40,095 bases of DNA from a virus: positions 1 to 40,095 of the IMG/VR virus record IMGVR_UViG_3300027796_000021; one strand, written 5' to 3'. The translations under genes and the position numbers were made by a program. The notes beneath the pieces are model-generated. The model saw only the letters and a program-made list of their open reading frames with translations, was not told where the DNA came from and did no database searches. Below, one piece after another: positions 8,596-35,411 of the stretch. How positions within the stretch are numbered: position 1 is the first letter of the stretch; each line of letters begins with the position of its first letter.

Positions 8596-9111
8596 TCAGG
8601 CTATAAAATTGTTTTTACAAATCTCAATGGTCATGATTTTGAATACCCACTCATTAATCACACTGTTGATATAGTAATCAGAAGTTATGAACTCCTTATA
8701 ATCAAAATAATCCCATCCAACATGATTCAAAACGAGGCTCAATCCAATGGCAACAGAGCGTGACATTCCTTTAAAGCAGTTGATATGCAGTAACATATGA
8801 TTAGTATCGTATACTTTATGATGAGCTATTAAATTAGCCGAAACAAAATTGTAAACATCATCAGCCATATTCTTATTGAACAATACAGGATTTCTTGTCA
8901 GAAATTCATTTTCATAGTAAGGATGGCAGAGATGATTATCAATCAGAAATGGAGTTACATCATCAAACTGAAGATTCAGAACATTATACTCAGCAGGAAC
9001 TACACTCTCATATCCAATATCATAGACACTGATGATTGGTTCATTGTGGGGAATTGTATGATTATTTACTGCCTCCTCCATCTCTTTTCTCGAATAAATT
9101 TTTATTCTCAT
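8596..9111 (-). CDS. tyrosine/dual-specificity phosphatase-like protein, 171 aa
   Basis: The P-loop NCFKGMSRSVA fits the CX5R(S/T) signature of cysteine-dependent phosphatases (Cys112, Arg118), preceded by the usual hydrophobic strand (MLLHI). An Asp-rich turn (FDDVTP, about 50-54) could supply the general acid. The N-terminus has SRKEMEEAVNN and a VYDIGYES segment typical of phage dual-specificity phosphatases. The start is ATG at 9111, because AAGGAG lies 8 bases upstream. A GTG 36 bases earlier lies inside the -10 box and cannot be used. As the first gene after the early promoter it would be made immediately. It may act on host phosphoproteins or on a small phosphorylated substrate. Confidence 0.8.
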   Translation of the reverse strand: MRIKIYSRKEMEEAVNNHTIPHNEPIISVYDIGYESVVPAEYNVLNLQFDDVTPFLIDNHLCHPYYENEFLTRNPVLFNKNMADDVYNFVSANLIAHHKVYDTNHMLLHINCFKGMSRSVAIGLSLVLNHVGWDYFDYKEFITSDYYINSVINEWVFKIMTIEICKNNFIA

Positions 9112-9166: not shown

Positions 9167-9219
9167 GCATCATTTTTAGTAATTTTTCAATTATTTTTCA
9201 ATTATTTTTAATTTTTCAC

Positions 9220-9247
9220 TTGAATTTTGTACAAACCGTGCTATATT
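9220..9247 (+). promoter_or_regulatory. rightward promoter P1, extended -10
   Basis: TTGAAT (9220-9225), 16-base spacer, TATATT (9242-9247) preceded by GTGC/CGTGC, which supplies the TG of an extended -10. Transcription would start near 9254, giving a leader of about 130 bases to the ATG at 9386. Confidence 0.85.
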
Positions 9248-9275
9248 ATATATAAAGAAGAATTAATAGTATATT

Positions 9276-9342
9276 ATTGATTCAGGTAAAACGGAAACTA
9301 GAACCGTTGACGGGTTAGTCCTTCTTCCCATCCTGAATCAAT
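9276..9342 (+). promoter_or_regulatory. structured mRNA leader of the 617-residue gene
   Basis: An 11-bp perfect outer stem joins ATTGATTCAGG (9276-9286) to CCTGAATCAAT (9332-9342) and encloses 45 bases. Inside, AACGG (9290-9294) and CCGTT (9304-9308) form a 5-bp hairpin with a 9-base loop. ACTA in that loop could pair with TAGT at 9316-9319 (pseudoknot). GGG 9312-9314 and CCC near 9327-9329 give another stem. A short U-run (9343-9346) follows the outer stem, so a weak attenuator or a ligand-sensing leader is possible. I do not match it to any known riboswitch. Confidence 0.6.
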
Positions 9343-9385
9343 TTTTAATAAAATTTAGAAGGACATAGTTAAAAAGGACATAGAA

Positions 9386-13184: not shown

Positions 13185-13240
13185 TCAAGCTCCTTATAAA
13201 AGATTTATATAAAATAAACAAATATAATGAGCTTGATTTT
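13185..13240 (+). terminator. probable terminator overlapping promoter P3
   Basis: TCAAGCTC (13185-13192) pairs with GAGCTTGA (13229-13236), followed by TTTTTT. The loop is 36 bases, long for an intrinsic terminator, so confidence is moderate. The 3' arm and U-run contain the -35 box (TTGATT 13233-13238) of the next promoter. Confidence 0.5.
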
Positions 13241-13260
13241 TTGTAAAACAGTGCTATATT
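13233..13260 (+). promoter_or_regulatory. rightward promoter P3, extended -10
   Basis: TTGATT (13233-13238), 16-base spacer, TATATT (13255-13260) preceded by GTGC. It drives nrdG-nrdD. It partly overlaps the terminator arm upstream. Confidence 0.85.
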
Positions 13261-13271
13261 ATATAGTAATT

Positions 13272-13878: not shown

Positions 13879-15885
13879 ATGAGTGATGAAGAGCAAGTTG
13901 AGCAGGAGATTAATTGTTTTGAAGCAGATGCAAAAGCGGCTATTACAAGAAAAAATATTACATATAAATTGAAAAAACATTTGAAAGAGAAATATAATAA
14001 GGAAGAATTGACAAATCCTATTCTGAAAGAACAGGGGATTGATCCAAAGAGATTTAATATTCTTGCTAATATTGAGAATTTCATGCTTGGGAAGATTGCA
14101 GATATTTCTGTTGATCCAAACGCAAATAAAAATGAAGTGAATTCTGAAGCTATTATTCAAGAAGCATTTAATCCTATCAGAAAGCTGTATGGAGCTGATA
14201 TTCTTTATCGTGAAATGAAATCCATGTATGGAAAAGAAGAAGCAGACAGGCTTTCCATGCTTATGTATGATTATTCTCTATATCTTGCAGATAGTACCAA
14301 AGTGGAACGTGTTTATTGTTGGGCCATGTCTACAAACTTTCTTGTGCAGGAAGGGCGTAATTTTGGAGTAGCACCCTCTACTCCTGCCAGAAGGTTGGAT
14401 TCTTATATCGGAGCTGTTTGTGAGATGCTTCATCAGCTTAGCAATCATACTGCCGGAGCTATTGCACTTTCTACTTTATTCATTGATTGTGCTTCTATTC
14501 TTATGTCTTATAAAGGGATTCTTGGAGAACCTGTTTCCTATGAAGATATTTGCAATGATCCGGTAATTAGAAAACGCATTGAAAATGAAATGCAGAGTTT
14601 GATCTATTCTTTGAATTTTTTATCTAGGTCTGGATGTGAACCTCCGTTTAGCAATGTTACGCTTTCAGATGATGCTAAACTTGCAAAAATGGCTGAAGAT
14701 TATCAATATCAATTTACAAAGCCAGATGGAACTGAATTTTCCATTGACGAGATTGTGAAATATACTCTGGAAGTCCAGAAACTTTATGTAAAGGTTTTTA
14801 ATGCTGGAAATATTTCTCAAGGAGGAACGCAATTCAGATTTCCAGTTACTACCTGTGCTTTTACAAAACTTTCAACTGGTGAAGTTTCAGAAACTTCTTG
14901 GTTTAGATGGATGATTGATAATGCAGATATGACTAGGTATAATATTTTTATTTCTGAAGGAGATAAGCAATGTTCCTGTTGCAGACTTATTAATGACGGG
15001 GAATTGCTTAAGCAGGGAAGTCAAATATCTTCTTTGGGAAATGTTACAGTTTCAATGGGATCAATTCGAGTAGTCACTGTAAATTTTATGCGCCCTGCTT
15101 TAATGGCTAATACTATTGAAGAGTTTTGGAAGATTTTTAATGAAAACATTCATTCAACTGCAAAGATTCTGAAAGCACATAGGAGCCTTATTCAAAGACT
15201 CACAGATGCAGGACTTCAGCCTTTCATGAATAAGATTTTTTCAATGGATCGTTTGTTCAGCACTTTTGGATGTGCTGGTATTGTAGAGTGTGCAGAAACT
15301 CTTAAGAAGAAGTTTAATATCCAAGGGGATGTTATGCGTGATTTGCTTTCTTTCTTTAAGGATAAAAGCAACATCTATTCTAGAGAATTGAATTTTCCAA
15401 ATAATTCTGAATTTGTACCCGGAGAAACTCTTTGCTGGAAGCTTAGTAAAGTTGATGCAATTATTTTTGGAAAAGAAAATCAGCCATATACAATGTATTC
15501 CAATCAATTTGTTCCGCTTTGGAAGAAAGCTTCCATTTATGAACGTCTGGAAGAAGCAGGAGACTATGACTTGTTGTTTAGCGGAGGTGCAATCACACAT
15601 GCACAGATTAATGAAAAGATTAGTAAAAAGCAAGCAGAGCATATTATTAAATTTGCGGCAAAATGCAATAATCAACACTTTGCCATTAATACAATAATGA
15701 CATACTGCGTTAATAATCATTATACTCAGGGAAAACATGATAAATGCCCTGAATGTGGAGGAGAGGTAAAGGATTATTATACAAGGATTGTTGGATATTT
15801 TATTCCAATTTCTGCCGCAAATAAGATTCGCAGGGAATGGGAATTTCCTCGTAGAACATTTGTGGATGTTCCTGAAATTGAGTAA
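13879..15885 (+). CDS. nrdD: anaerobic ribonucleoside-triphosphate reductase NrdD, 668 aa
   Basis: Class III reductase that converts NTPs to dNTPs using a glycyl radical and formate. Visible points: HQLSNHTAGAIALSTLF (about 190-206), QGGTQFRFPVTTC with the substrate-site Cys, CSCCRL, and a C-terminal zinc finger region with CVNNHYTQGKHDKCPECGG. The glycyl-radical loop RIVGYFIP has Gly639 as the likely radical site, 30 residues from the end. I see no obvious N-terminal ATP cone. The length is near that of T4 NrdD (about 605) plus an extension. Its activase lies directly upstream. Confidence 0.93.
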   Translation: MSDEEQVEQEINCFEADAKAAITRKNITYKLKKHLKEKYNKEELTNPILKEQGIDPKRFNILANIENFMLGKIADISVDPNANKNEVNSEAIIQEAFNPIRKLYGADILYREMKSMYGKEEADRLSMLMYDYSLYLADSTKVERVYCWAMSTNFLVQEGRNFGVAPSTPARRLDSYIGAVCEMLHQLSNHTAGAIALSTLFIDCASILMSYKGILGEPVSYEDICNDPVIRKRIENEMQSLIYSLNFLSRSGCEPPFSNVTLSDDAKLAKMAEDYQYQFTKPDGTEFSIDEIVKYTLEVQKLYVKVFNAGNISQGGTQFRFPVTTCAFTKLSTGEVSETSWFRWMIDNADMTRYNIFISEGDKQCSCCRLINDGELLKQGSQISSLGNVTVSMGSIRVVTVNFMRPALMANTIEEFWKIFNENIHSTAKILKAHRSLIQRLTDAGLQPFMNKIFSMDRLFSTFGCAGIVECAETLKKKFNIQGDVMRDLLSFFKDKSNIYSRELNFPNNSEFVPGETLCWKLSKVDAIIFGKENQPYTMYSNQFVPLWKKASIYERLEEAGDYDLLFSGGAITHAQINEKISKKQAEHIIKFAAKCNNQHFAINTIMTYCVNNHYTQGKHDKCPECGGEVKDYYTRIVGYFIPISAANKIRREWEFPRRTFVDVPEIE

Positions 15886-15920
15886 ATTATTTAAAAATTA
15901 GCAATTATTTTTTAAATAAT
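15886..15920 (+). terminator. AT-only hairpin after nrdD
   Basis: ATTATTTAAAAA (15886-15897) pairs with TTTTTAAATAAT (15909-15920), 12 bp around an 11-base loop directly after the nrdD stop. It has no GC pair and no separate U-run, so termination is weak or uncertain. Promoter P4 starts three bases later. Confidence 0.4.
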
Positions 15921-15922
15921 AC

Positions 15923-15950
15923 TTGATTTTTAAAAAAGATGTGCTATATT
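15923..15950 (+). promoter_or_regulatory. rightward promoter P4, extended -10
   Basis: TTGATT (15923-15928), 16-base spacer, TATATT (15945-15950) preceded by GTGC. It drives the glycosyltransferase-terminase-portal unit. Confidence 0.85.
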
Positions 15951-15976
15951 ATATAGTTAGAGAGATTATAGGTTAA

Positions 15977-16025
15977 GCAAGAGTATGTCACCTACCACGA
16001 TTATACTGTGGTTAAAAACTCTTGC
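15977..16025 (+). promoter_or_regulatory. structured leader before the glycosyltransferase
   Basis: GCAAGAGT (15977-15984) pairs perfectly with ACTCTTGC (16018-16025), enclosing ACCAC (15994-15998)/GTGGT (16008-16012) with a 9-base loop. The plan, an outer stem around a 5-bp, 9-base-loop hairpin, is the same as in the P1 leader, though the sequence differs. No U-run follows. Confidence 0.55.
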
Positions 16026-16082
16026 ATAATTTAATAATGGATTCTTTGTGTAAAGTAATAGTTTGTTTAATTTTGGAGAGTT

Positions 16083-17159
16083 ATGTTAAAAAATAAATAT
16101 CTTTTTGCTTCTTCTTATTTAGGAAATGGAGCAGTATCATTTTATAGAAGCAGAGCCGTTACAGCTATTCTCTCTTCAGCTTATGGAGATTCTGCCATTT
16201 TTAATGAAAGTGGTTCTTTTATTAAGGATATTGAATTTTTGACATATTGTGATAATATACGATTGCAGAGAGTTGCTTTGGATATGTGCACAAATTACTT
16301 TGATAAAGTAAAAGCACTATCCAATGAACTTGGTTTTTCTGTGATTACGGATTATGATGATATTATGTTTGCCGATGATTTTCCAGATTATAATGAATAT
16401 AAGGATTCTTATAAACAAATAAAAGATGAAACGGTTAAACATTTTATGGAAGGTTCAGATATAGTAACCGTTACAACTGATGTGCTTGCACAATACTATT
16501 CCAAACGGCTGAATCTTGACATTAAGAAATTTAAAGTAATTGATAATTACCTTCCTGCATTTTGGGGAAACGGATTATATGACACAGAAAAAATCTCAAA
16601 AAGATACAGTGATTTTCATAGACACCCCCGAATTCTTATCTCATGCTCTAGTTCTCATTTTTGTAATAATGGACTTGCTGATAATTGTGATGACTTTGAT
16701 AGCACATTGGATTGGATCATAGCAAATAAGAATAAATATGAATTCTTTATTCAAGGAGGAAGCAATAAGCGTTTAAGAGATTGCGGAGCTGATATTAAAT
16801 TTGTAAAATCTCAAAATGTTTATAATTATTTGTACAGCCGGGATTCTGTGGAGCCTCTTCTTTATATTCAGCCTTTGAAGGATTGTATATTTAATAGATG
16901 TAAGAGTGCAATAAAACTTTATGAAGCTGATAAATCTGGTATTCCTATTTTGCTACAGGATATTCCTCCGTATCAAGGAAAGACAGACCTTCTATTCACC
17001 AATGGAGACGATTTGAATACTCTTGCAACTCGATTGTTCAGTGATAAGGAGTTCTATATGGATCAGGTTAAGAAAGCCCGTGACAGGTCTTATAATCAGA
17101 TTTTGGAAACTCATGCAGATGAATGGGTAAATGTTATGAAGAGGAATTTTCAAAAATGA
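16083..17159 (+). CDS. GT-B type glycosyltransferase-like protein, 358 aa
   Basis: The sequence has the pattern of a phage GT-B enzyme. It starts with SYLGNGAVSFYRSRA. TDYDDIMFADDFPDYNEY and GSDIVTVTTDVLAQYYSKRL precede a linker, VIDNYLPAFW. The second domain has HPRILISCSSSHF and PLLYIQPLKD, then an NRCKSAIKLYEADKSGIPIL segment that fits the sugar-nucleotide pocket of GT4-like enzymes. Donor and acceptor are unknown. With the BAHT-like enzyme one unit upstream, it may extend a glycan on the same target. It lies immediately before terS, with ATG/TGA overlap. GGAGAG lies before ATG at 16083. Confidence 0.72.
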   Translation: MLKNKYLFASSYLGNGAVSFYRSRAVTAILSSAYGDSAIFNESGSFIKDIEFLTYCDNIRLQRVALDMCTNYFDKVKALSNELGFSVITDYDDIMFADDFPDYNEYKDSYKQIKDETVKHFMEGSDIVTVTTDVLAQYYSKRLNLDIKKFKVIDNYLPAFWGNGLYDTEKISKRYSDFHRHPRILISCSSSHFCNNGLADNCDDFDSTLDWIIANKNKYEFFIQGGSNKRLRDCGADIKFVKSQNVYNYLYSRDSVEPLLYIQPLKDCIFNRCKSAIKLYEADKSGIPILLQDIPPYQGKTDLLFTNGDDLNTLATRLFSDKEFYMDQVKKARDRSYNQILETHADEWVNVMKRNFQK

Positions 17160-17845
17160 CGGAAGAACTGGTTAAAATAGATAATGAGAGTTGGTTGAAT
17201 GATAAGAAGCTTGATGAATCTATTAATGTAATTCCCCGTGAAATTCCTGATGAAAAGTTTGATATAATTGATTTGAGATTTCCTTCAGAAAAGGATAAAG
17301 CTGATTATGTAAGCAATGTAGGTAACAAATTATTTCAACTTTCCAATATGATTTATGCACAAGAATCTGAAAAGAATATACTTTCTTTTTTGGGATTGAG
17401 CAGAAAGAAATTTTATCTATTTAAAAGATGGTTTCCAGAGTTTAGGAATGCAGTTGCACAAGGAAAATTGAGCATGGTTGAAAGAGTTGAATCTTCTCAA
17501 GAGAGACGTGCTATTGGAATGAATACTACTGATGTAGAAATCACTAATATTTATGAACCAGATAGAGATGGTGTGATGAAACTTGTTCAGAAAAAAGAAA
17601 AGATATTGAAAAAAGAAATTCCACCGGATGCTCGTGCTGCTGAAATGATATTGATTAATAGATCGCCTAACCGATGGCAGAAAGCAAAATCTGACAGTTT
17701 TGTTCAGAATAATACTCAGAATGTTATCAATGTTTCTGAAGATGCTGTCAAAAATATGTTAAATCGTATGAATGGTTTATCTATTGATACAAAAGAAATG
17801 AAAGAAGAGATAAAAGATGCTGAGGTATTAGATAATGGCAGTTGA
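17156..17845 (+). CDS. terS: terminase small subunit, 229 aa
   Basis: Its position just before terL and its size support terminase small subunit. After an acidic N-terminus comes a helix-turn-helix-like region, MIYAQESEKNILSFLGLSRK then KFYLFKRWFPEFRNAVAQGK, the DNA-binding part that recognises the packaging site. The C-terminal half (KSDSFVQNNTQNVINVSED) probably contains the oligomerisation and TerL-contact part. The start is ATG at 17156, overlapping the glycosyltransferase stop with GAGGAA 8 bases ahead. An earlier ATG at 17123 lies inside the upstream gene without a site. The end overlaps terL by 11 bases. Confidence 0.78.
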   Translation: MTEELVKIDNESWLNDKKLDESINVIPREIPDEKFDIIDLRFPSEKDKADYVSNVGNKLFQLSNMIYAQESEKNILSFLGLSRKKFYLFKRWFPEFRNAVAQGKLSMVERVESSQERRAIGMNTTDVEITNIYEPDRDGVMKLVQKKEKILKKEIPPDARAAEMILINRSPNRWQKAKSDSFVQNNTQNVINVSEDAVKNMLNRMNGLSIDTKEMKEEIKDAEVLDNGS

Positions 17846-19376
17846 TTATAATTTTGATGTTATGGAAATGGAAGTGGAAGAAAGGGCTATTGTAAGGAAA
17901 ATCTTTGATAGTGATTTTTCTAAATTTGCATCCTATTTTTTCAAGGTTCTTACTGGTGAAACAATGCTTATGAATTGGCATCATAAATGGCTTTGCAAAA
18001 TTCTTGAGCAAGTTTATAATCAGGAATTGAAAAATGTTATTATCAATATCTCTCCCGGAGCTTCTAAAAGTGTAATGCTTTGCCGATTGTTTCCGGCTTA
18101 TTGTTATTCTAAAAAACCACATTGTCGATTTTTGGAAATTTCTTATGATTCAGAACTCGTTGAATCTCATTCAGTTGCTGTAAAAGATATTATTGGTTCA
18201 AAAGAGTTCAGAGCCTTGTATGGAAATTATTCATTTAAAGCTGATAATGATAAAAAAGCCGAATGGACTTTATCTTATGGAAATCAAATAAATGCAGGGG
18301 AATTTGTTGCTGTTTCTTTGAAAGGTGGTATCACCGGTAAGCGCGGGGGGTATATGGAAGAAGGATTTACCGGATGCATTATTATTGATGACCCTATAAA
18401 AGTGATGGATGCGGCTTCCAAGGCAAAGAGAGATGAAGCAAATACAGTTCTGTCAAGTACGGTTAGTAGTAGACGTGCTCTTGAAGGTAAAACTCCCATT
18501 CTTATGATTATGCAGAGACTCAATGAAGATGATCCTACAGGATATTTGCTTTCTGTTCAGGCTAAGGAGAATTGGACGCATATTTCAATCCCTGCACTTA
18601 TTGACAGAGAAATTTATGATGCTTTTCCAGAGAATGTAAAACAATTTGCTCATGATTATATTAATGATGAGATTGAAAAAACAGGAGCTGCTTCTTATTG
18701 GGAATATAAAGTTCCAAAGAAAATGCTTTTTGAATATAAAGAAAAAAATACTTATGAATTTGAAGCACAGTATCAGCAGAATCCAGTTCCAAAGGGAGGA
18801 GCTTTATTTCAAACGGATTGGTTCCAGAATTATAATAATATTCCAGAAAAATTTGATTCGGTAAAGATATTTGCAGATACGGCAGTTAGTGCAAAAACTT
18901 ATTCTGATAGTTCTGTTCTATTGGCTGTTGGGGAAGTTAATAAAAATTTATATCTGCTTGACTTGATGAAGGGTAAATGGGAAATGCCTGAACTCACAAG
19001 GAATGCAATTAGTTTTGCCACGGCAATAAGAACTCGATTTTCAAATAGTATTTTCAAAGGATTTTTCATTGAATTTCGTTCTTCAGGGCAGGGATTGGTT
19101 CAGACTCTTAGAAATGATACAAGACTTCCCATTATTGATATTGCTCCAAAAGGAGAGAAGGTTCAACGAGCACAACAAGCACTTCCATATGTTCAAGGGA
19201 AGAGAATTTACATTCCAGAGAAAAGTTTATGGGTAGCTAATTTCTTGTTGGAAATATCACAATTTTCTCCGGCAATGTCACATAAACATGATGACCAAGT
19301 AGACGTTCTTGTTTATGCAATCTGGAATGCTTATATAGAACCTAAAACAGTTGTTATACGAGATATACATTTTTAA
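17835..19376 (+). CDS. terL: terminase large subunit, 513 aa
   Basis: This is the packaging motor: an ATPase at the portal plus a headful or site-cutting nuclease. The Walker A-like loop SPGASKS is at 73-79. GITGKRGG is at 165-172. The Walker B strand CIIIDDP is at 181-187. MIMQRLNEDDPTG is a Terminase_6-type coupling segment. The nuclease domain shows KIFADTAVSAK (Asp348 area) and HDDQVDVLVYAIW (about 488-500) as RuvC-fold acidic residues. The length is typical. GAGGTA lies upstream of ATG at 17835, and translation is coupled to terS. Confidence 0.95.
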   Translation: MAVDYNFDVMEMEVEERAIVRKIFDSDFSKFASYFFKVLTGETMLMNWHHKWLCKILEQVYNQELKNVIINISPGASKSVMLCRLFPAYCYSKKPHCRFLEISYDSELVESHSVAVKDIIGSKEFRALYGNYSFKADNDKKAEWTLSYGNQINAGEFVAVSLKGGITGKRGGYMEEGFTGCIIIDDPIKVMDAASKAKRDEANTVLSSTVSSRRALEGKTPILMIMQRLNEDDPTGYLLSVQAKENWTHISIPALIDREIYDAFPENVKQFAHDYINDEIEKTGAASYWEYKVPKKMLFEYKEKNTYEFEAQYQQNPVPKGGALFQTDWFQNYNNIPEKFDSVKIFADTAVSAKTYSDSSVLLAVGEVNKNLYLLDLMKGKWEMPELTRNAISFATAIRTRFSNSIFKGFFIEFRSSGQGLVQTLRNDTRLPIIDIAPKGEKVQRAQQALPYVQGKRIYIPEKSLWVANFLLEISQFSPAMSHKHDDQVDVLVYAIWNAYIEPKTVVIRDIHF

Positions 19377-19396: not shown

Positions 19397-21091
19397 ATGT
19401 ATGCAGAAAATGATGATGTAAAGAATTCTGGAATTGTCGATCATGAAGCTTATCAGGATTATGAAGGGGTTTGGGATTTGATTGATGATTGTGTGGATGG
19501 AGAAGCTGTTATTAAGAGTAAGACTGAAACTTATTTGAGTAAAACAGAAGGAATGGCTTCAGATGCTGTTTATGGAGCGGCTATTTATGCAAGATATTTG
19601 AGGAATGCACAATTTCCTGAATATACTTATGATTATCTTTCTGCTGTAAATGGAATGCTCAGGCAAAAAGACCCTACAGTAAATGTTCCTGAAAAGATTG
19701 AAAAGGAGTATCTTATTTCTCCTACAGATGAAGCAAATAAAACCTTCATGGATATTTATGGAGAAGTCATTGATGATGTGATTAAATATTCCAGATGCGG
19801 AATTCTTCTTGATCCTCCTGAAACAATCGAGATGAAAGCAGATTTGTTTCCAAGTATGATTAAATATGGAACACGTTCTATTCGTAATTGGGGATACTCT
19901 ATTTTCAATGGAAGAAAAATTCCTACTATGATTCTTCTGGATGAGAGTTTTACAAGTTATGAAAATGAATCTTTGTCTGCAAAAACTGTTGAGAAGTTTA
20001 GATTTTTAGGATTGAAGATAAAAGATACTTATTATGATTCTGATGGAACTATCAGAGAGATTTATTTGAAACAGCCTCTGTATTATACTTATACAGGAGA
20101 TAGATTTACAAAAGCTATATTCAATCCTCCTGCACCTGATGCAAACGGTTTTGCCGAAGTAGATGGTACTGAAATTCGTTATCCAAGGTTGAATGGGTCA
20201 TATTCTAACTCCATTCCTTTCTTTTGCTTTGGCTCTACTGAAATGTCTTTATATCCTGAAAAGCCTCTTGCATATCCTATTTGCAAAGGTTGTTTATATC
20301 TTTATGGATTGAATGCAGACTTCAGGGAGTATCTTTATAAAACAGGATTTGGAATTTATTTTGCAAACGGAGTAGATTCTGATAAGGATATATATGTTGG
20401 AACTAATAAAGTTTGCGTTGTATCTTCTGAAAAAGCTGATTTGAAATTGGTAGAAAGCAACGGAGTAGGTTTGTCTGAATATAGGCTTGCAATTCAGAAT
20501 ACTACTGAATATATTAAATCTCTTGGATTGTCCATTTTGAAAAATGCAGGAGATGAAAGTGGAACTAGTGTTGGGAAAAGAATTTCACTGAGGACTAGTA
20601 ATCTTAAATCCATTTCAAAAACTATTGCTGAAGGATTTGCCCTGATTATTAAGAAAGCCGCTGAATGGAACGGTAATATTCCACAAGAAGGTGAGTCTGG
20701 TATTGATAGCATTTCTATTGTTCCGGTTACAGAATTTCATACATCTCCTCAGCTTTCTGACCTTATTTCAATTAGTTCTACCGTTAATGCTAATAGGGTT
20801 ATTATTTCTGATTATGATACTTATCTTAATCTGAGAGCACAGAACTTTACTCCGATTACGACTTTTGATGAATGGAATACAGCAAGAAGAGAAACTCAGG
20901 CTGAAAAGGATGCTAGGGATTTGGCTATAAAGAGGGCAGAACTTCAGATGCAAAAAGATATTGAATTTGAAAGTTTGAAAAAGAAAGCTCTTCTTGATAT
21001 TGAAATAAATAAACTTAAACCTGTAGAACCTGTTGAAACAAATCCTAAAAAGAAAGTTGCAAAGATTGTAGTTCAGAATGATGCAAATTAA
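19397..21091 (+). CDS. portal protein (DUF4055-like), 564 aa
   Basis: Dodecameric ring at the unique capsid vertex through which DNA is packaged and ejected. The N-terminus (VWDLIDDCVDGEAVIKSKTE, then TYLSKTEG, then IYARYLRNAQF) fits the DUF4055/phage-portal-like group. The middle (about 130-400) is mixed alpha/beta. The C-terminus (about 480-560: ETQAEKDARDLAIKRAELQM) is a long coiled coil, as in portal crowns or barrels. Its position directly after terL supports it. AAGGAAAA lies before ATG at 19397. Confidence 0.85.
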   Translation: MYAENDDVKNSGIVDHEAYQDYEGVWDLIDDCVDGEAVIKSKTETYLSKTEGMASDAVYGAAIYARYLRNAQFPEYTYDYLSAVNGMLRQKDPTVNVPEKIEKEYLISPTDEANKTFMDIYGEVIDDVIKYSRCGILLDPPETIEMKADLFPSMIKYGTRSIRNWGYSIFNGRKIPTMILLDESFTSYENESLSAKTVEKFRFLGLKIKDTYYDSDGTIREIYLKQPLYYTYTGDRFTKAIFNPPAPDANGFAEVDGTEIRYPRLNGSYSNSIPFFCFGSTEMSLYPEKPLAYPICKGCLYLYGLNADFREYLYKTGFGIYFANGVDSDKDIYVGTNKVCVVSSEKADLKLVESNGVGLSEYRLAIQNTTEYIKSLGLSILKNAGDESGTSVGKRISLRTSNLKSISKTIAEGFALIIKKAAEWNGNIPQEGESGIDSISIVPVTEFHTSPQLSDLISISSTVNANRVIISDYDTYLNLRAQNFTPITTFDEWNTARRETQAEKDARDLAIKRAELQMQKDIEFESLKKKALLDIEINKLKPVEPVETNPKKKVAKIVVQNDAN

Positions 21092-21153: not shown

Positions 21154-21229
21154 TATAATAAAAGTTCATTTAAAATGTATTTAAATCAAAGAAAAGTAGA
21201 AAATAATTGATATTTTTACAAATTTTTAC

Positions 21230-21257
21230 TTGAATTTTTAAAAAAGTGTGCTATATT
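21230..21257 (+). promoter_or_regulatory. rightward promoter P5, extended -10
   Basis: TTGAAT (21230-21235), 16-base spacer, TATATT (21252-21257) preceded by GTGC. It drives scaffold, capsid, connectors and tail tube. It has a leader of about 100 bases. Confidence 0.85.
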
Positions 21258-21327
21258 ATATAGTAAAGTAAATTACCATACTTACAAATAATGCTCAAGG
21301 ATGTGAGATTTTTGAGATTATATAAAT

Positions 21328-21348
21328 AATCAAGAGTGATTCTTGATT
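21328..21348 (+). promoter_or_regulatory. GTGAT-loop hairpin before the scaffold ribosome site
   Basis: AATCAAGA (21328-21335), pentaloop GTGAT (21336-21340), TCTTGATT (21341-21348), perfect 8 bp. It ends 8 bases before the AGGAG (21357-21361) of the scaffold gene. An alternative stem, GATTAT (21316-21321) with ATAATC (21326-21331), shares the AATC and would compete with it. See the two other GTGAT hairpins. Confidence 0.65.
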
Positions 21349-21366
21349 GGTAAATTAGGAGATGTT

Positions 21367-22191
21367 ATGCCAGAACTGAATTTTGAAGTGGAAAATCTTG
21401 AGTCCATTGAAGAAACCTTTCGTCCTCTCTATAAAGAGGTAGAACAAGAAGTTGAGAAAGATGGTGTTAAAACTAAAATTAAAGCTTATCAGCTTAATGC
21501 GGTTGGCGCAAAATCGGAAAAAGATATTGAAGGTTATCGGACTGCCTTGAATAAAGAACGTGCTTTCCGGGAAGCCGCCGAAAAGAATTTGAAAGCGTTT
21601 GGAACACTTACTCCTGAAACTGCTCGTGAAATGGAAAGTAAACTTAAGAACTTCGAAGTTGCCGGAAGTTCTAAAACCGAAGAAGATTTCAGGAAGCGTT
21701 TGGAAGATACCCGTTCTGCACATCAAGCTCAGTTGCTTGAGTATCAGAATAATTGGAATTCCTCTATTGCAGAAAAAGATAAAATCATTTCTGAAAAAGA
21801 AGGAGAGATTACCGGATTGATGCTTTTTTCCCAGCTTAGTGAAGCTTATGCTGAAAAAGGTGTTGAAGGGGGTCTTGATGTTGCTCTTGATTTTGCAAAG
21901 CGTGATTTGGAGTTGAATAAAGATACTAAGAAGTTTGTTACCAAAGATGGTTTGCTTACTGTTAAACAGTGGCTGAATGATGTTCTCTGGAAAGATCGTC
22001 CATTCCTTCTTAAAGCAAATGTATCTGCCGGTGCAAATCGTCCTAGCAGTCTTGGTGGAGTTAATTGGGAAGAAGTATTTAATCCTAATAGTAAAGGATA
22101 TCGTATTAAAGAAAATATGCAAAAAAGAGTTCAGCTTTTTAAGGATAATCCTGATAGAGCATACGCTCTGGCTGAAAAATATAAAAAATAA
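21367..22191 (+). CDS. capsid scaffold/assembly protein, 274 aa
   Basis: Its position between portal and major capsid and its composition fit a scaffold. It is helical and charged (TALNKERAFREAAEKNLKAF; EFRKRLEDTR-like helices around 120-165), with a small C-terminal segment, RPSSLGGVNWEEVFNPN, then a basic tail ending LAEKYKK. Such proteins guide shell assembly and are later lost or cleaved; no protease gene was seen nearby. The start is ATG at 21367 after AGGAG. An earlier in-frame TTG/ATG at 21343 lies inside the hairpin and is rejected. Confidence 0.8.
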   Translation: MPELNFEVENLESIEETFRPLYKEVEQEVEKDGVKTKIKAYQLNAVGAKSEKDIEGYRTALNKERAFREAAEKNLKAFGTLTPETAREMESKLKNFEVAGSSKTEEDFRKRLEDTRSAHQAQLLEYQNNWNSSIAEKDKIISEKEGEITGLMLFSQLSEAYAEKGVEGGLDVALDFAKRDLELNKDTKKFVTKDGLLTVKQWLNDVLWKDRPFLLKANVSAGANRPSSLGGVNWEEVFNPNSKGYRIKENMQKRVQLFKDNPDRAYALAEKYKK

Positions 22192-22192
22192 A

Positions 22193-22317
22193 TATAAGGG
22201 AGCATGGTGCTCCCTATAAATAAAGACTATAAGAGAAGTCTAGAGAGTGATTCTCTGAGATTATGCGGCGTGAGGCTAAATAATCCTTCTTAAAGTAGTT
22301 TCAAAGAAAGTTTGAAA
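22193..22317 (+). promoter_or_regulatory. multi-hairpin leader of the capsid gene
   Basis: Five stems stand in series between scaffold stop and capsid start. GGGAGCA (22198-22204)/TGCTCCC (22208-22214). AGACT (22224-22228)/AGTCT (22237-22241). AGAGA-GTGAT-TCTCT (22242-22256). GATTAT (22259-22264)/ATAATC (22280-22285). TTTCAAA (22299-22305)/TTTGAAA (22311-22317). The last ends just before AGGAG. There is no promoter here, so this is processed or read-through mRNA structure that may protect the 5' end or tune capsid output. Confidence 0.65.
22242..22256 (+). promoter_or_regulatory. GTGAT-loop hairpin, second copy
   Basis: AGAGA (22242-22246), GTGAT loop (22247-22251), TCTCT (22252-22256). Same AGA-GTGAT-TCT core as the hairpin before the scaffold gene. 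Confidence 0.65.
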
Positions 22318-22337
22318 TTTAAAATAGGAGAAGCCTT

Positions 22338-23354
22338 ATGGCCGTTGTTAAAATTACTGATGTTGTTGTTCCAGAACTTTTTACACCTTATAATAGTTTG
22401 GATTTGCTGGAAAGGAATGCCTTTATTAAAAGTGGAGTTGCGTTCAGTGACCCTGCTGTTACTAAATTGATGGATGCTGTTCAAGGAGGGGATGTTATCT
22501 CTCTTCCGTTCTGGAATCCGATTACTATTGCCGAGCCTAATGTCGGTGATGATTCTGATGTGAATTCAACCCCCGGTGGTATTACTGCCAGCAGAGAAAT
22601 TGCTACTAAGACCTTTGTGAATGAGTCGTGGGGAGCTAAAGATATTGCTGGATTGCTTGCAGGGTCTAGTCCGATGTATGATATTGCAATGAAAGTTGAT
22701 GACTTCTGGACGGCTGATGGTGAGAAGCGCATCATCTATGCCGCTACAGGTATTCTTGCTGAATCCGTTGCTAGCCATGATTCTGACCTTGTGTATGATA
22801 TTTCTGCACAGACCGGAACGGGTGAAGTCTCCACTCTCGGTGCGGCTTCTATTATTACTGCTCGTGGTTATCTTGGCGAATACATGGAAGACCTTACCAT
22901 GATTGCCATGCACCCGGTTGTTTATACGAATCTTGAACAGCAGAACCTTATTGATTTTGTTCGCGATTCTGAAAACAACACTCTGTTCAAAACTTATAAC
23001 GGAATGCGTGTTATCATTGACAAAAATATGCCTAAAGTTTCCTTGGGTGGAAGTGTTTATAAATATTACACTTACATGTTTGGAACTGGTGTGTTTTCTC
23101 TCAATTATGGTGATCCCGGAATTGCACAGGAAATTGAACGTAATCCTGCAAGTGGTAACGGACAGGGCGAAGAGATTCTTTATTCTCGCAGAGCCATTCT
23201 GGTTCATCCGCGTGGTTATCAGGTCAATGTTACGACCACTCCGGCTCTTGCACACGGTTTGACTTATGCCAACCTTGCGCTTGCCAGCTCTTGGACGCGC
23301 GCTTGGACGGAACGCGAACGCATTAAATTTGTTGCTATTGCAACGCTCGGATAA
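22338..23354 (+). CDS. major capsid protein, HK97-type, 338 aa
   Basis: Its position after scaffold, its length and pattern fit a HK97-fold capsid protein. VVVPELFTPYNSLDLLERN (N-arm), GGDVISLPFWNPI (E-loop region), then an A/P-domain with TMIAMHPVVYTNLEQQNLID and MRVIIDKNMPK strands, and YSRRAILVHPRGYQ. The gene uses more G+C-ended codons (CGC, GCC, CCG) than its neighbours, as expected for a very highly translated gene. AGGAG precedes the ATG at 22338. No protease is needed if the scaffold is released intact. Confidence 0.9.
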   Translation: MAVVKITDVVVPELFTPYNSLDLLERNAFIKSGVAFSDPAVTKLMDAVQGGDVISLPFWNPITIAEPNVGDDSDVNSTPGGITASREIATKTFVNESWGAKDIAGLLAGSSPMYDIAMKVDDFWTADGEKRIIYAATGILAESVASHDSDLVYDISAQTGTGEVSTLGAASIITARGYLGEYMEDLTMIAMHPVVYTNLEQQNLIDFVRDSENNTLFKTYNGMRVIIDKNMPKVSLGGSVYKYYTYMFGTGVFSLNYGDPGIAQEIERNPASGNGQGEEILYSRRAILVHPRGYQVNVTTTPALAHGLTYANLALASSWTRAWTERERIKFVAIATLG

Positions 23355-23357
23355 AAC

Positions 23358-23374
23358 CTGCATAGTTCTTGCAG
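23358..23374 (+). promoter_or_regulatory. small hairpin after capsid gene
   Basis: CTGCA (23358-23362)/TGCAG (23370-23374), 7-base loop, between the capsid stop and the third GTGAT hairpin. No U-run. Confidence 0.4.
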
Positions 23375-23383
23375 CAGTCTCCA

Positions 23384-23412
23384 CTAGGGAGAGGAGTGAT
23401 TTCTCTCCCTAG
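23384..23412 (+). promoter_or_regulatory. GTGAT-loop hairpin, third copy (12 bp)
   Basis: CTAGGGAGAGGA (23384-23395), GTGAT loop (23396-23400), TTCTCTCCCTAG (23401-23412). It forms 12 bp with one G-U pair and closes the same loop with A-U as the other two copies. It lies downstream of the capsid stop and just before the next gene. No U-run follows, so it is more likely a protein-binding or RNA-protecting element than a terminator. Confidence 0.7.
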
Positions 23413-23794: not shown

Positions 23795-24316
23795 ATGTCA
23801 ATATCATTTGATGCGTTGGATACAACAATAGGTGGAGAGAATTCCAATTCTTATGGAACTTTGGAAGAATTAAAAGCCTATTTTGCTAATAGGAGCGAGG
23901 CTTCCACGTTTCTTGCGATGGAAGATGATGAGCTTATTGCTCGTATGATACAGGCTGTAATGATAAATGACACGTTGTTGACTGCTTTTGGTACTCTTGC
24001 TGACGGGGAACAGTCTTTACAGTTCCCCCGAACCGATCTAGTTGACAGACACGGAAGAGAGTATGAGGATACAGTAATTCCAGAGAAAATTAAATGGGCG
24101 CAGTTTGAACAGGCAAAATATCTTGCAACGAATAGCATTTCACTTCCGTCAATTCTTACACAAGGATTTAGTGAAGCTAAAATGGATGTTATGTCAATTA
24201 AATTGAGCAAAGAGTTTATTCCTAGAAAAGTATCTTTTGATGCTATTGATTATCTTGAGCTTTTTGGAACGGTTTCTGAAGGTGATACTAAAAGTGTTAT
24301 GCTGATAAGGTATTGA
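23795..24316 (+). CDS. head-tail connector/adaptor-like protein, 173 aa
   Basis: The order GENSNSYGTLEELKAYFAN, LIARMIQAVMINDTL, LQFPRTDLVDRHGR and IPEKIKWAQFEQAKYLA matches the family labelled DnaT-like in Pfam but found in phage morphogenesis clusters as a head-tail adaptor. It would sit as a ring on the portal. The ribosome site is weak (AAGGCG), probably translated by coupling to the preceding gene, whose stop is 7 bases upstream. Confidence 0.75.
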   Translation: MSISFDALDTTIGGENSNSYGTLEELKAYFANRSEASTFLAMEDDELIARMIQAVMINDTLLTAFGTLADGEQSLQFPRTDLVDRHGREYEDTVIPEKIKWAQFEQAKYLATNSISLPSILTQGFSEAKMDVMSIKLSKEFIPRKVSFDAIDYLELFGTVSEGDTKSVMLIRY

Positions 24317-24322
24317 AAATAA

Positions 24323-24712
24323 ATGGCAAATATATTTGATGAGATATTTAGTGGAGAAGGTGGTTTAGCAGATACCTTGCTTGATGTTCTTGGAAATGTT
24401 GCAACTGTTTATGTAAAGAAAACACTTGGTGCTACTGTTGATATTATTAAAGGAACTAGGACGGAAACAACTGTTTCAACAAATGTGATTACCTCTCCTT
24501 TGCTGAAATATTCAGCTTATGAGACAAAGACTTATGGTATACAACAAGGAGATTCTAAAGTTATTGGCAAAGGGATTGATTTTACAGATGTTCAGGACAA
24601 TGTAGACAGTATTACCATTGCTGGTACAACTTATATGATTGTCTCACATAGGGATATTAATTCCGGGGCAAATAAGGCACTTGTGATGCTTCAAGTAAGG
24701 AAACAGGTATGA
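24323..24712 (+). CDS. putative neck/head-completion protein, 129 aa
   Basis: The N-terminus (IFDEIFSGEGGLADTLLDVL, then GNVATVYVKKT) is helical, then beta-rich with DSITIAGTTYMIVSHRDIN near the C-terminus. The motif DSITIAGTTYMIV fits stopper/neck proteins of the small beta-barrel type. Context (between adaptor and gp10-like protein) is the main support. The start site is weak (AAGGTAT). Confidence 0.65.
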   Translation: MANIFDEIFSGEGGLADTLLDVLGNVATVYVKKTLGATVDIIKGTRTETTVSTNVITSPLLKYSAYETKTYGIQQGDSKVIGKGIDFTDVQDNVDSITIAGTTYMIVSHRDINSGANKALVMLQVRKQV

Positions 24713-26343: not shown

Positions 26344-26396
26344 AATAGTTCACAGATTGGTTTTCAGAATATGATAATCATCTGTGAATTATTTTT
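26344..26396 (+). terminator. intrinsic terminator after tail tube gene
   Basis: AATAGTTCACAGAT (26344-26357) pairs with ATCTGTGAATTATT (26380-26393), 14 bp including one G-U pair, then TTT and a T-rich tract. The 22-base loop is long, but the stem is strong. It closes the P5 unit and lies just before P6. Confidence 0.78.
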
Positions 26397-26417
26397 GATT
26401 ATTTTTCAATCTTTTAC

Positions 26418-26445
26418 TTGAATTTTGTAAAAAGTGTGCTATATT
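26418..26445 (+). promoter_or_regulatory. rightward promoter P6, extended -10
   Basis: TTGAAT (26418-26423), 16-base spacer, TATATT (26440-26445) preceded by GTGC. It drives tail chaperones and tape measure. The leader begins with a 6-bp hairpin, GTAAAG (26456-26461)/CTTTAC (26472-26477). Confidence 0.85.
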
Positions 26446-26504
26446 ATATATTAAAGTAAAGTTTAATAAGGCTTTACAATAACTGCTAAACTAAGGAGAC
26501 AAGA

Positions 26505-27112: not shown

Positions 27113-27120
27113 AATTTATA

Positions 27121-27145
27121 AGAAGGTTCTATTCCAGAGCCTTCT
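27121..27145 (+). promoter_or_regulatory. hairpin between chaperone and tape measure genes
   Basis: AGAAGGTTCT (27121-27130) pairs with AGAGCCTTCT (27136-27145), 10 bp with one G-U pair and pentaloop ATTCC. A short T-rich run follows. It may reduce read-through into the tape measure or simply protect the RNA. Confidence 0.55.
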
Positions 27146-27170
27146 TTATATTATTATATAGGAGTCTTTC

Positions 27171-30100
27171 ATGGCTGATGAAATTACATTAGTAGCTGAT
27201 AGCCAAAGTTTTGTAAACGCTTTTAAAGCGTGTGACGATGCCATGAAAAGAACTAATGAGTTTTTTGGTAAAACCCAAGAAGCTCTATCAAAAGTTGGAA
27301 CTACTTTTGAAAGCGCTAGTGCTTCTATTAAAGCTGCCGCTGATGATATTCAGAGAATTCAAGAAAGCCTTATCACTGTAGATAAATCCTTTGCGAATAT
27401 TAGCAATACTTTTGGAACTCTTGGAAGCAAACTCGATGGAGCAGGAAAAGGAATCCAATCTGCTTTTCAAGGTTTGTATGGAAAGATTAAATCTGGAAGT
27501 AGTGTTGCAGATGTTGCTAAAGAAGTAAATGAAAAAATAAAAACATCAATTACTTCTGGAACTGGAGCGGGTTCTGAAAAAGCTTGGACAGGACTTGATT
27601 CTTTAAAAAGCCTTATGCTTGGATTAAAATCTGTTCAAAAGCTTGACCGAGGGGGAATGGTTGCAAAGCTTTCCAAAACTTTTTTAACCCTTTCAAACGC
27701 ATTGAATATTATTTCAAAGCTTCCTATGGAAGGTCTTACAAAACTTGATACTATGGGTGCTAATGAAAAAGTAACGGGTATAAAGTTATTTTTACAATCT
27801 CTTACAACAATGTTATCTACGGAATTTAAAGGAGAAAATCTTCAAGTATTTTCTGCAATAACATCTTCATTAAGTAAACTTGGTTATTTTTTCAAAACAT
27901 TGGAATCATTTTCAAGTGCAAGCAAAAAAACAACTTTTGACAGCAGTGCTTTAGTCACATCTATTAGAAGTCTTATTATTGATCTAGGAAGCCTTGCCAA
28001 TGCTCCTGAATATTCAAAGTTTATAGAATTGGCAAATGCAATGGAGAAAGTTTCCCTTGCATCTAAGAATATATCTGGTTCTACTAAAAAAGCAACTTCT
28101 GCATTAAATTCACTAACAACTACAACCTCAACATCTGGTTTAAATCTTCTCGCTGGAGGATTTCGTTCTATTGTTGCTGCCTTTATTGGCGGCAGTGTTA
28201 TTTATTCTACTGTCCGTGCAATTAAACAATCTATTACTGAATTAATTGATCTTGAATCAATCATGCGCAGGATAAATACGATTGCTCGTGAATCTGAAGC
28301 TTCATTAGCAGGAATGACTACGGGTATTTTACAATTAAGTCAAGCTACAGGTATTAAGAAAACCGATCTTGCAGAAGCTTTGTATGAAATCAACTCTGCT
28401 ACAATAAAAGGTTCTGATGCAATGCTTGTATTAAGAGCTTCTGCATATTCAGCAGTAGCTGGATTTACTGAAACTAAAAAAGTAGCTGAACTTATTTCTA
28501 AGATTTTGAACGCTTATGGTGAATCTGCAAATAAAGCAGAATATTATTCTGACGTATTGTTCAAGACAGTTGAACGTGGTATCAATCCCATGAGTGAACT
28601 TGTTCAATATCTTGGAAATGTTATTACTGTTGCAGCAGGTGCCGGAATATCCTTTGAAGAAGTTTCTGCCGCTGTAGCTACTCTTACTGATATGGGTTAT
28701 AAAACAAACGTTGCTGTTACTTCTCTTAATAGTGCCATCTTGAAGTTTGCAAAAGGAAATAAGCAGTTAAATAAGCTTTTTCAAGATAGTGGATATGCTT
28801 CTTCAGCGGCGGCTGTTAGAGTAATTGGATTGAAAAGAGCTTTTGATTTGATAAGAGATGCCACAGGAGGAGCTACTGAGAAATTAGCAGAATTAGGCTT
28901 TAATTACCGGGATATTAGAGCGGCTTCCGTTCTTGCTTCCAAAAGTCTAGCTCTTTATCAAACAAATATGGATGAAATTGTAAATAAAACAAACGTAGCA
29001 GGAGCTACTCAAGCGGCTTTTGTTGAAATTCAAAAATCACTTAAACAGGTTTTTGATGAAACATCTGCTTCTATAAGTACTTTTATTTCAAACATTACTA
29101 ATTCAACTCAATCATTAAGTATTTTTAGAAATGTTTTGCTTGGGGTTAAAACTTTATTTGAAGAAGTTAATAGTGCATTAATAAAATATAATGAAAATAT
29201 GAATCTGAGTTTTGGACAAAGTGTTCTTGTAAAAATTGTTAGCATAGGAGCTGCTCTAATAGGTGTTTTATCTACAGTTTTACTTTTTAAAAAGATAGGA
29301 ACTCTTTTAGCCGGATTAACAATTTCTTCTGGTCTTATTGTAGGAACTTCAACCCTTGCTAAACAAGCTTTAAAGATTGGAACATATTTTGCAAAAATAG
29401 GAATTCCGCATGCAGTAATTCTTTCAGCACTTAATCTTAGTAAGATATTTTATTTAATTGTGAATAGAATAACTATTTGGGTAGTAGCCATTGAAAAAAC
29501 ATATTCATGGATGTCTGAATTACTCAAACTAACCGGGTCATGGTCATATGCCATAAAAGAAATATGGGAGAATATTAATTCTATTCCAAAATTAGTAAGA
29601 GCAGTTCTCGTAACTATAGTTTCTGCTGTCGGAGCTTCTTTAGACATACTCACTTTAGGAATTTTTGGATTTACAGAGCAATTTGGTGATGCTATGACTA
29701 ACTTAGCAAATAGAATTCTTGGAATTAAATTAGAATTCTCCGTTCCAGAAGAAAATCAAGGCATTGCATCACTTAGAGAACAAGTGATTGCACTTAATAA
29801 AGAATTTGCTAATACTAAAAAAGGAACAGAGGAATATAGTAAATTAATTTATAAATTTAACATGCTTAAAGAAGCTATTGCAAAAGTTCCCGGAGCATCT
29901 AAAGAACTTGGAGAATCTTTAAAAAATCTTCAAGGGAAAATTAAAACAGTACAAGAACCTTCCATAGAGCTTGAAAAATCAAATAGAGATTTACTTTCTA
30001 ATATAATAAAAGAATTAGAAGATGCTGAGTTTAAGAAAATGGAACCCATCAAGAGAATAGTTGATTTAGAATATAAGTCAAAAATTACAGAACGTGCTCT

Positions 30101-31097
30101 TAGTGGATTTTCAGGATTTAATACGGAAATGATAGAGAGTTCTAAATATATAAATTCTTTTGTAGAGTTAATAAGAAAAACACAAGGCGAATTTGCTGTC
30201 GGAGGATTTCTTGAAAATTTAAAATCTTACAGAGATTTAATTCAAGAAATTGGAAAAGATTATGCGAAGATTGAGAAATCTGCAAAAGATGCTTTTAATA
30301 CTTTGGCTAAAACTTTTTCAAAAGAAAAATCCATTTCTGAAATTATTAAAGAAAACTTAATTGCTCTTGAAAAACTTAAGCAGAACGCTACCATAAAAGA
30401 AGATTTAAAGATTTTATTTGAGATTTCAAACATTACAGATGTAGCTCAGCAAAAAGAAGCTTATGATAAATTTTTTGCAGATTTAAAAAGTTCTTTCGGA
30501 GCAGATTCTGCCGAATATTTAAGATATGTAGATACTTTGAAAAAAGGAATGATATACCAGAACGAGCTTTCCAAAGGAACTCAAAAACTTACAAAAGAAA
30601 TGGAATCTCTTTCAAAATCTATTGAAGATTCTATTATGGATATTGATAAGCAAATATTAGAATATGAAGGAAAAGGTCTTTCTATAGAAGATAAGAAAGA
30701 AAAAGCTTTTAATAAAGTTACAATACAATATGAGAAACTTCAGGAATATATAATTCCCGGAATGACCCCTCCAAAGGAAGAGATAGATAAATTTAAGTCT
30801 TTATATGGGGATTATTTTGAGTTATTGAAAAAATCAGTTCCCGGACAATTAGGAACAGCTATTAGAGAAACATCTGCTGTTGAAATGGGTGGTAAAGAAG
30901 CTTTTGATATAATTGCAAAGACAGTTTACAGAGAAAACAAAGATAATGTAAAGGATATTAAAGATAATACAGATGATATGCTCGGTCATTTGATAAGCTT
31001 TAAAGGTGTTTTGGAAAGCATAGATAAGAATGCACAAGGAATGGTAAATAAAATGACAGGAACTGCTGATACTATAATAACTTCGAGTTCTTTGTGA
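27171..31097 (+). CDS. tape measure protein, 1308 aa
   Basis: It sets tail length and is ejected with the DNA. It is very long, rich in Ala/Ser/Lys/Glu and helical. The TP901-type core runs about 325-640 (NLLAGGFRSIVAAFIGGSVI, then MRRINTIARESEASLAGMTT, GILQLSQATGI, VITVAAGAGISFEEVSAAVA, TLTDMG). Hydrophobic segments around 683-725 (VLVKIVSIGAALIGVLSTVL) and later can insert into the membrane. The C-terminal third is coiled coil (KKGMIYQNELSKGTQKL). At about 1.5 angstrom per residue the tail would be near 190-200 nm, which is inference. AGGAG lies before ATG at 27171. Confidence 0.93.
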   Translation: MADEITLVADSQSFVNAFKACDDAMKRTNEFFGKTQEALSKVGTTFESASASIKAAADDIQRIQESLITVDKSFANISNTFGTLGSKLDGAGKGIQSAFQGLYGKIKSGSSVADVAKEVNEKIKTSITSGTGAGSEKAWTGLDSLKSLMLGLKSVQKLDRGGMVAKLSKTFLTLSNALNIISKLPMEGLTKLDTMGANEKVTGIKLFLQSLTTMLSTEFKGENLQVFSAITSSLSKLGYFFKTLESFSSASKKTTFDSSALVTSIRSLIIDLGSLANAPEYSKFIELANAMEKVSLASKNISGSTKKATSALNSLTTTTSTSGLNLLAGGFRSIVAAFIGGSVIYSTVRAIKQSITELIDLESIMRRINTIARESEASLAGMTTGILQLSQATGIKKTDLAEALYEINSATIKGSDAMLVLRASAYSAVAGFTETKKVAELISKILNAYGESANKAEYYSDVLFKTVERGINPMSELVQYLGNVITVAAGAGISFEEVSAAVATLTDMGYKTNVAVTSLNSAILKFAKGNKQLNKLFQDSGYASSAAAVRVIGLKRAFDLIRDATGGATEKLAELGFNYRDIRAASVLASKSLALYQTNMDEIVNKTNVAGATQAAFVEIQKSLKQVFDETSASISTFISNITNSTQSLSIFRNVLLGVKTLFEEVNSALIKYNENMNLSFGQSVLVKIVSIGAALIGVLSTVLLFKKIGTLLAGLTISSGLIVGTSTLAKQALKIGTYFAKIGIPHAVILSALNLSKIFYLIVNRITIWVVAIEKTYSWMSELLKLTGSWSYAIKEIWENINSIPKLVRAVLVTIVSAVGASLDILTLGIFGFTEQFGDAMTNLANRILGIKLEFSVPEENQGIASLREQVIALNKEFANTKKGTEEYSKLIYKFNMLKEAIAKVPGASKELGESLKNLQGKIKTVQEPSIELEKSNRDLLSNIIKELEDAEFKKMEPIKRIVDLEYKSKITERALSGFSGFNTEMIESSKYINSFVELIRKTQGEFAVGGFLENLKSYRDLIQEIGKDYAKIEKSAKDAFNTLAKTFSKEKSISEIIKENLIALEKLKQNATIKEDLKILFEISNITDVAQQKEAYDKFFADLKSSFGADSAEYLRYVDTLKKGMIYQNELSKGTQKLTKEMESLSKSIEDSIMDIDKQILEYEGKGLSIEDKKEKAFNKVTIQYEKLQEYIIPGMTPPKEEIDKFKSLYGDYFELLKKSVPGQLGTAIRETSAVEMGGKEAFDIIAKTVYRENKDNVKDIKDNTDDMLGHLISFKGVLESIDKNAQGMVNKMTGTADTIITSSSL

Positions 31098-31113
31098 TAT
31101 TTTTAATTTACAC

Positions 31114-31141
31114 TTGACTTTTTGTAAAAGTGTGCTATATT
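31114..31141 (+). promoter_or_regulatory. rightward promoter P7, extended -10
   Basis: TTGACT (31114-31119), 16-base spacer, TATATT (31136-31141) preceded by GTGC. Short leader of about 35 bases. It drives the distal tail genes. Confidence 0.85.
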
Positions 31142-31182
31142 ATATAGTATGAATAAAATGTGGTTTATATAGGGAATGATTA

Positions 31183-35047: not shown

Positions 35048-35320
35048 ATGAGTTATTCAAACTGTAACAAAGAAGAATATGAACAAAAAGTAAAGGAATT
35101 GTTATTATTGCATAGTGGAAAAGAATGCAAGGACAAATTAGTTGTGCAATCTATTTCCATTATAACAGATTGTATTCATGCAGATGACACAAAAGAGATG
35201 AATCCCAATTGCAAATGTCGTGGAACAAAAATCATTTGCAATAATTCCAATTTATCAGGTTTTACAAATTATAGTAAATATTGCAATAAGTATAATTGCA
35301 AATATTATGCAAATAGTTGA
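35048..35320 (+). CDS. cysteine-rich small protein, 90 aa
   Basis: Unrecognised. Cys-rich: CNKEEY (N-terminus), GKECKDK, DCIHADD, NCKCRGTKIICN, YCNKYNCKYY. The Cys spacing could bind zinc or form disulfides. It lies between tail fibre genes under P7, so a virion or fibre-processing role is possible. No signal peptide. AAGGTTT is a moderate site before ATG at 35048. Confidence 0.65.
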   Translation: MSYSNCNKEEYEQKVKELLLLHSGKECKDKLVVQSISIITDCIHADDTKEMNPNCKCRGTKIICNNSNLSGFTNYSKYCNKYNCKYYANS

Positions 35321-35339
35321 ATAATTTAAAATATTTTGC

Positions 35340-35367
35340 TTGACTTTTGCAAAAAGTGTGCTATATT
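35340..35367 (+). promoter_or_regulatory. rightward promoter P8, extended -10
   Basis: TTGACT (35340-35345), 16-base spacer, TATATT (35362-35367) preceded by GTGC. Short leader of about 38 bases. It drives the fibre unit. Confidence 0.85.
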
Positions 35368-35411
35368 ATATATTAAAGAAATTAATGAAAGAAATATAAG
35401 GGGGATTTTTT

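Follow-up and report, generated by a model that had tools for sequence, protein, structure and literature searches.

The three hairpins that flank the scaffold and capsid genes of this phage are read here, with about even confidence, as parts of an mRNA-level control of the scaffold-capsid operon and not as copies of one operator recognised through its loop. From the predicted structures and their positions, a post-capsid hairpin position that is conserved in relatives, and a predicted lock on the start of the major capsid protein (MCP) gene, we infer that the hairpins most likely tune the amount of each protein made. In tailed phages the amounts of scaffold, capsid, and connector proteins have to be kept in balance, for which mRNA structure offers one route.

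The window, that is, the whole stretch of DNA analysed, comprises 40,095 bases of a virus record (33% GC). Family searches identified genes for TerL (17835-19376), portal (19397-21091), head-tail adaptor and closure (23795-24712), and tape measure (27171-31097) proteins. The MCP gene (phrog_247, E 1.4e-79) lies on the + strand at 22338-23354. Upstream of it, also on the + strand, a gene at 21367-22191 encodes a scaffold-like protein of 274 amino acids, so designated from its position and from weak similarity (27%) to the ORF preceding the MCP gene in one relative (L053); despite this position, family searches gave no family match for the product. A tRNA-Trp gene (6183-6258) lies between the scaffold-like gene and the MCP gene of L053. 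No close relatives were detected using MCP (against viral and genome contigs), TerL, TerL profiles, or an MCP profile, nor by blastn of the scaffold-capsid region against phage records, and an alignment of eight MCP sequences was too divergent to serve as a search query. The best homologues of the phage are distant, with 35-39% protein identity, and for this reason covariation of the stems could not be assessed. The window also encodes an NrdD-type anaerobic ribonucleotide reductase (13879-15885; best listed phage match Desulfovibrio phage ProddE, 28% identity), which suggests an anaerobic host.

The initial annotation had described three GTGAT-loop hairpins closed by A-U pairs and placed before scaffold, before capsid, and after capsid, and inspection confirmed the structures, their coordinates, and their placement. 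All are on the + strand. Hairpin 1 (AAUCAAGA-GUGAU-UCUUGAUU, 21328-21348, loop 21336-21340) has 8 bp and precedes the scaffold gene; hairpin 2 (AGAGA-GUGAU-UCUCU, 22242-22256, loop 22247-22251) has 5 bp and lies between the scaffold and MCP genes; and hairpin 3 (CUAGGGAGAGGA-GUGAU-UUCUCUCCCUAG, 23384-23412, loop 23396-23400) has 12 bp, including a single G-U pair next to the closing A-U, and follows the MCP gene. Pair probabilities in context were 0.93-1.0 for hairpin 3, 0.87-0.92 for hairpin 2, and about 0.7-0.8 for most pairs of hairpin 1 (0.36 for the outermost). Two additional hairpins with GUGAG loops (1a and 2b), which the annotation had overlooked, adjoin hairpins 1 and 2. A further GTGAT hairpin of 5 bp (16244-16258) was found within a coding region. 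All three regions folded better than shuffled sequence, with z-scores of -2.60 (R1), -4.40 (R2), and -2.56 (R3).

A sigma-70-like promoter with an extended -10 (TTGAAT-16-TATATT, TG) was detected by promoter scan at 21230-21257 on the + strand. It belongs to repeat family D1, of which the window has about seven near-identical copies; the promoter-like repeats occupy 9194-9255, 13207-13268, 15897-15958, 21204-21265, 26392-26453, 31088-31149, and 35314-35375. The copies (TTGA..., extended -10 TGTGCTATATTATATA) precede gene blocks of the + strand, and a scan of viral contigs gave no match to the repeated pattern elsewhere. Given the copy at 21230-21257, hairpin 1 falls within the 5' leader of the scaffold-capsid operon. 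Within this leader, element R1 (21273-21353, + strand) was predicted to form an outer helix (21273-21277/21349-21353) around two hairpins, with agreement between the MFE and centroid structures; hairpin 1a (21288-21321, + strand) carries its GUGAG loop at 21303-21307 on a predicted stem of 9 bp plus 5 bp. R1 ends immediately before the scaffold Shine-Dalgarno sequence AGGAG (21357). The scaffold start is open (opening energy 2.2 kcal/mol), as is the start of the gene at 23437 (1.9 kcal/mol). Lying just 3' of the repeated promoter and before an open ribosome-binding site (RBS), the R1 double hairpin would probably protect the 5' end or space the RBS.

The most unusual element of the region is the predicted lock on the capsid start. 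In the scaffold-MCP region (R2), a long imperfect hairpin at 22265-22345 (+ strand; 13, 5, and 9 bp with internal loops) sequesters both the MCP Shine-Dalgarno sequence GGAG (22327-22330) and the AUG (22338). In the fold of the full RNA, 22265-22277 pairs with 22332-22345, locking the start codon, and 22286-22290 is paired over the Shine-Dalgarno sequence. Opening the MCP start was predicted to cost 12.8 kcal/mol, compared with 7.0 +/- 1.7 kcal/mol when the upstream sequence was shuffled, and 1 of 200 shuffles reached it. An RBS so strongly locked would be surprising in a highly expressed capsid gene if nothing opened the fold. Hairpin 2 is followed by this long fold, and under mRNA-level control translation of MCP would need its opening. 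One possible means of opening is co-transcriptional folding into hairpin 2b (22259-22285, + strand, loop GUGAG at 22270-22274), which appeared in the nascent-RNA fold of 22192-22290; hairpin 2b and the lock are predicted to be mutually exclusive. Alternatively, a ribosome on a short upstream ORF, or cleavage of the long hairpin, could open it. A candidate ORF of six codons (MRREAK, 22263-22283, + strand), identified from sequence only, overlaps the locking strand. In most relatives too few bases separate the scaffold and MCP genes to hold a counterpart of R2 or hairpin 2, so R2 is without comparative support.

Hairpin 3 is best read as this phage's version of an ordinary post-capsid hairpin. 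Among the 66 distinct MCP relatives whose sequence was long enough, 44 have a hairpin of 7 bp or more in the 80 nt that follow the MCP stop, compared with 8.7 expected from shuffles, and hairpin 3, with its 12 bp, is of this kind; T-rich tails followed 23 of the 44. In SPP1, a terminator has been predicted directly after the MCP gene 13 (8775-8815) and another before the scaffold gene 11 (6780-6824) (PMC6316719). It is the retention of this position in relatives, together with the SPP1 terminator, that leads to our reading of hairpin 3: the post-capsid hairpins or terminators of SPP1, Serratia phage Eta, PaMx25, and other relatives resemble it in place and size, and in having a variable stem. 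Unlike those terminators, hairpin 3 has no U-tract (its tail is CTTAACTTGA) and shares its loop with two more hairpins of the same operon. It does not qualify as an intrinsic (Rho-independent) terminator, and none of hairpins 1, 2, and 3 was listed by a terminator scan; simple termination at hairpin 3 is unlikely because the U-tract is absent. Hairpin 3 may instead weakly attenuate transcription or stabilise a 3' end, and would thereby set the ratio of capsid to downstream gene products. By this survey, a hairpin directly 3' of the capsid gene is general in this capsid lineage, its position being conserved and its loop free to vary. Before the scaffold ORF, a hairpin within 100 nt was found in 26 of 65 relatives (8.7 expected), with start codons assigned mechanically.

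The annotation had also proposed looking in related phages for a fixed GTGAT loop on covarying stems, and the survey of distant relatives gave no support for such a loop. The post-MCP loops of relatives were TTCG, GTAAAA, GAAA, and many others, and GTGAT was present in none of the 44 hairpins of these distant relatives. The hexaloop GTAAAA follows MCP on differing stems in the distinct relatives L101, L107, L116, L130, and L136. In no relative was a loop of at least 5 nt common to the post-MCP hairpin and another hairpin of the locus.

Sharing of the loop within this genome was assessed by shuffling the intergenic sequence, scoring any loop shared by at least 3 of the 12 intergenic regions. 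With stems of at least 5 bp, a shared pentaloop arose in 13 of 2000 shuffles; with stems of at least 6 bp, in none (0/2000). When loops of 4-7 nt were allowed, sharing rose to 48/800 and 3/800, respectively. The observed maximum with stems of at least 5 bp was four regions, which probably reflects the repeated near-palindromic promoter. The sharing of a pentaloop across three intergenic regions exceeds chance modestly. That three unrelated, ordinary mRNA hairpins share five bases by coincidence is, in our judgement, somewhat unlikely. The 48 matches in 800 shuffles speak for it, as do the unrelated loops on the post-MCP hairpins of relatives and the weakness of hairpin 2, which has only five Watson-Crick pairs and reaches six only if a terminal U-G is counted. 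Against it stand the shuffles with stems of at least 6 bp, the location of the sites in consecutive intergenic regions of one operon, and the fact that all three copies of the 8-mer GAGTGATT on the window's + strand fall at the three hairpins.

In the preferred reading, the loop is shared partly by chance and partly because R1 and R2 are to some extent related. The words GAGATTAT and TAAATAATC occur in the same order in both regions, and their alignment beats shuffles with p about 0.002, a value that is marginal after correction since this was one of 28 pairs tested. A general preference for GNRAN or GTGAT pentaloops was not seen in a survey of 2.6 Mb of related loci: GNRAN loops were not over-represented, and none of 1361 pentaloop hairpins had GTGAT closed by six Watson-Crick pairs. 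GTGAT is therefore not an ordinary loop of related-phage hairpins, and its recurrence in this genome is not explained by such a preference. The shared loop, for which a general loop preference gives no account, counts against mRNA-level control of the kind proposed here.

It is unlikely that one RNA-binding protein, of phage or host, recognises GUGAU (perhaps also GUGAG) and, once bound to the scaffold-capsid mRNA, either represses its translation or directs its processing. Such a protein would account for the recurrence, in three intergenic regions in a row, of one loop with its closing A-U on stems that differ, for the shuffles with stems of at least 6 bp, and for the two GUGAG loops nearby; a fixed loop on varied stems fits recognition of RNA rather than DNA. 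By sequence, GUGA-U matches GNRA with an extra base after the A. In RNase MRP, a GNRA pentaloop with an n5-n6 insertion has its looped-out base facing protein (PMC12550061), a precedent for the possibility that GUGAU takes a GNRA-like fold and presents its looped-out fifth base to a protein. On the other side, the loop is absent from the post-MCP hairpins of relatives and from the 6-bp pentaloop hairpins of related loci. When viral contigs (IMG/VR) were scanned with the hairpin 1 core, 57 matches (2 intergenic) were returned, no excess over the 49 (6 intergenic) of a permuted-loop control. No RNA-binding repressor was recognised among the phage proteins by profile search, and the spacing between hairpin and start codon is far from uniform (about 18, 81, and 24 nt). 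As an element GUGAU is not widespread, and as a pentaloop it is not favoured in general. In Rfam covariance models, only a tRNA reached the gathering score in the window, the hairpin region being far below thresholds in a permissive scan, and a literature search found no report on a GUGAU hairpin element.

The positive support for a loop-specific RNA-binding protein is the recurrence itself, and we regard such a protein as unlikely to improbable; its more specific form, in which GUGAU operators for a protein yet to be identified coordinate scaffold, capsid, and head-joining synthesis with the MCP lock as one output, is improbable. If the loop were a recognition site, the capsid operon of a dsDNA phage would have an RNA operator. 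Of the protein-binding RNA element suggested by the initial annotation, a function at the RNA level around scaffold and capsid is borne out by the folding z-scores, the post-capsid position, and the MCP lock, whereas recognition of a fixed loop is not supported; nor is it refuted, because the searches found no relative close enough to show covariation.

Three known systems invite comparison. The MS2 coat-protein operator is likewise a hairpin near structural genes; the hairpins described here share no loop with it and have no bulged A, and they belong to a dsDNA phage, whose capsid protein is unrelated. They also differ from it in lying at differing distances from start codons and in being candidate sites known from sequence alone. 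The lambdoid boxB sites of the N peptide are hairpins with a GNRA-like pentaloop, a fold that GUGAU would fit by sequence, and hairpin 1 is in a promoter-proximal leader. Unlike in boxB, the loop and the inserted position are different and hairpins 2 and 3 are intercistronic; no N-like protein was recognised and no convincing boxA was seen in this phage. The P22 scaffolding protein is autoregulated post-transcriptionally, and control at the RNA level of how much scaffold is made relative to coat would follow the same principle; binding of scaffold to its own mRNA would be hypothetical in this phage. A literature search on P22 scaffolding autoregulation found no paper.

Processing by an RNase III-type enzyme, in which cutting of the 22265-22345 fold would release the MCP RBS while the GUGAU hairpins cap the ends of processed mRNAs, is rather improbable. 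The length and internal loops of that fold resemble phage RNase III sites as generally known, and the lock must open for MCP to be translated. This reading is built on the predicted fold, however, and the GUGAU hairpins (5-12 bp) are too short for typical substrates. A DNA-binding palindrome is unlikely, as the half-sites differ and the spacer is constant; a tRNA anticodon mimic, an IRE-like loop, and a CsrA GGA motif were dropped since the loops do not match.

Structured leaders were also observed elsewhere in the window. The leader before a glycosyltransferase gene (15958-16082) contains a long stem (GCAAGAGT/ACTCTTGC) and the word GAGATTAT found in the scaffold and capsid leaders. The leader (9257-9385) of a 617-amino-acid gene at 9386 contains the stem TTGATTCAGG/CCTGAATCAA, and its AGTCCTTCT is complementary to a downstream AGAAGGACA near the start, making an RBS-sequestering switch possible. 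An 11-bp hairpin with the loop ATTCC (27120-27146, z -3.27) lies just 5' of the tape measure gene. An RNA ligase gene (phrog_968, 1896-2957) and a tRNA-Met(CAT) gene (3492-3569, minus strand) were also identified, and possibly represent an RNA repair pair.
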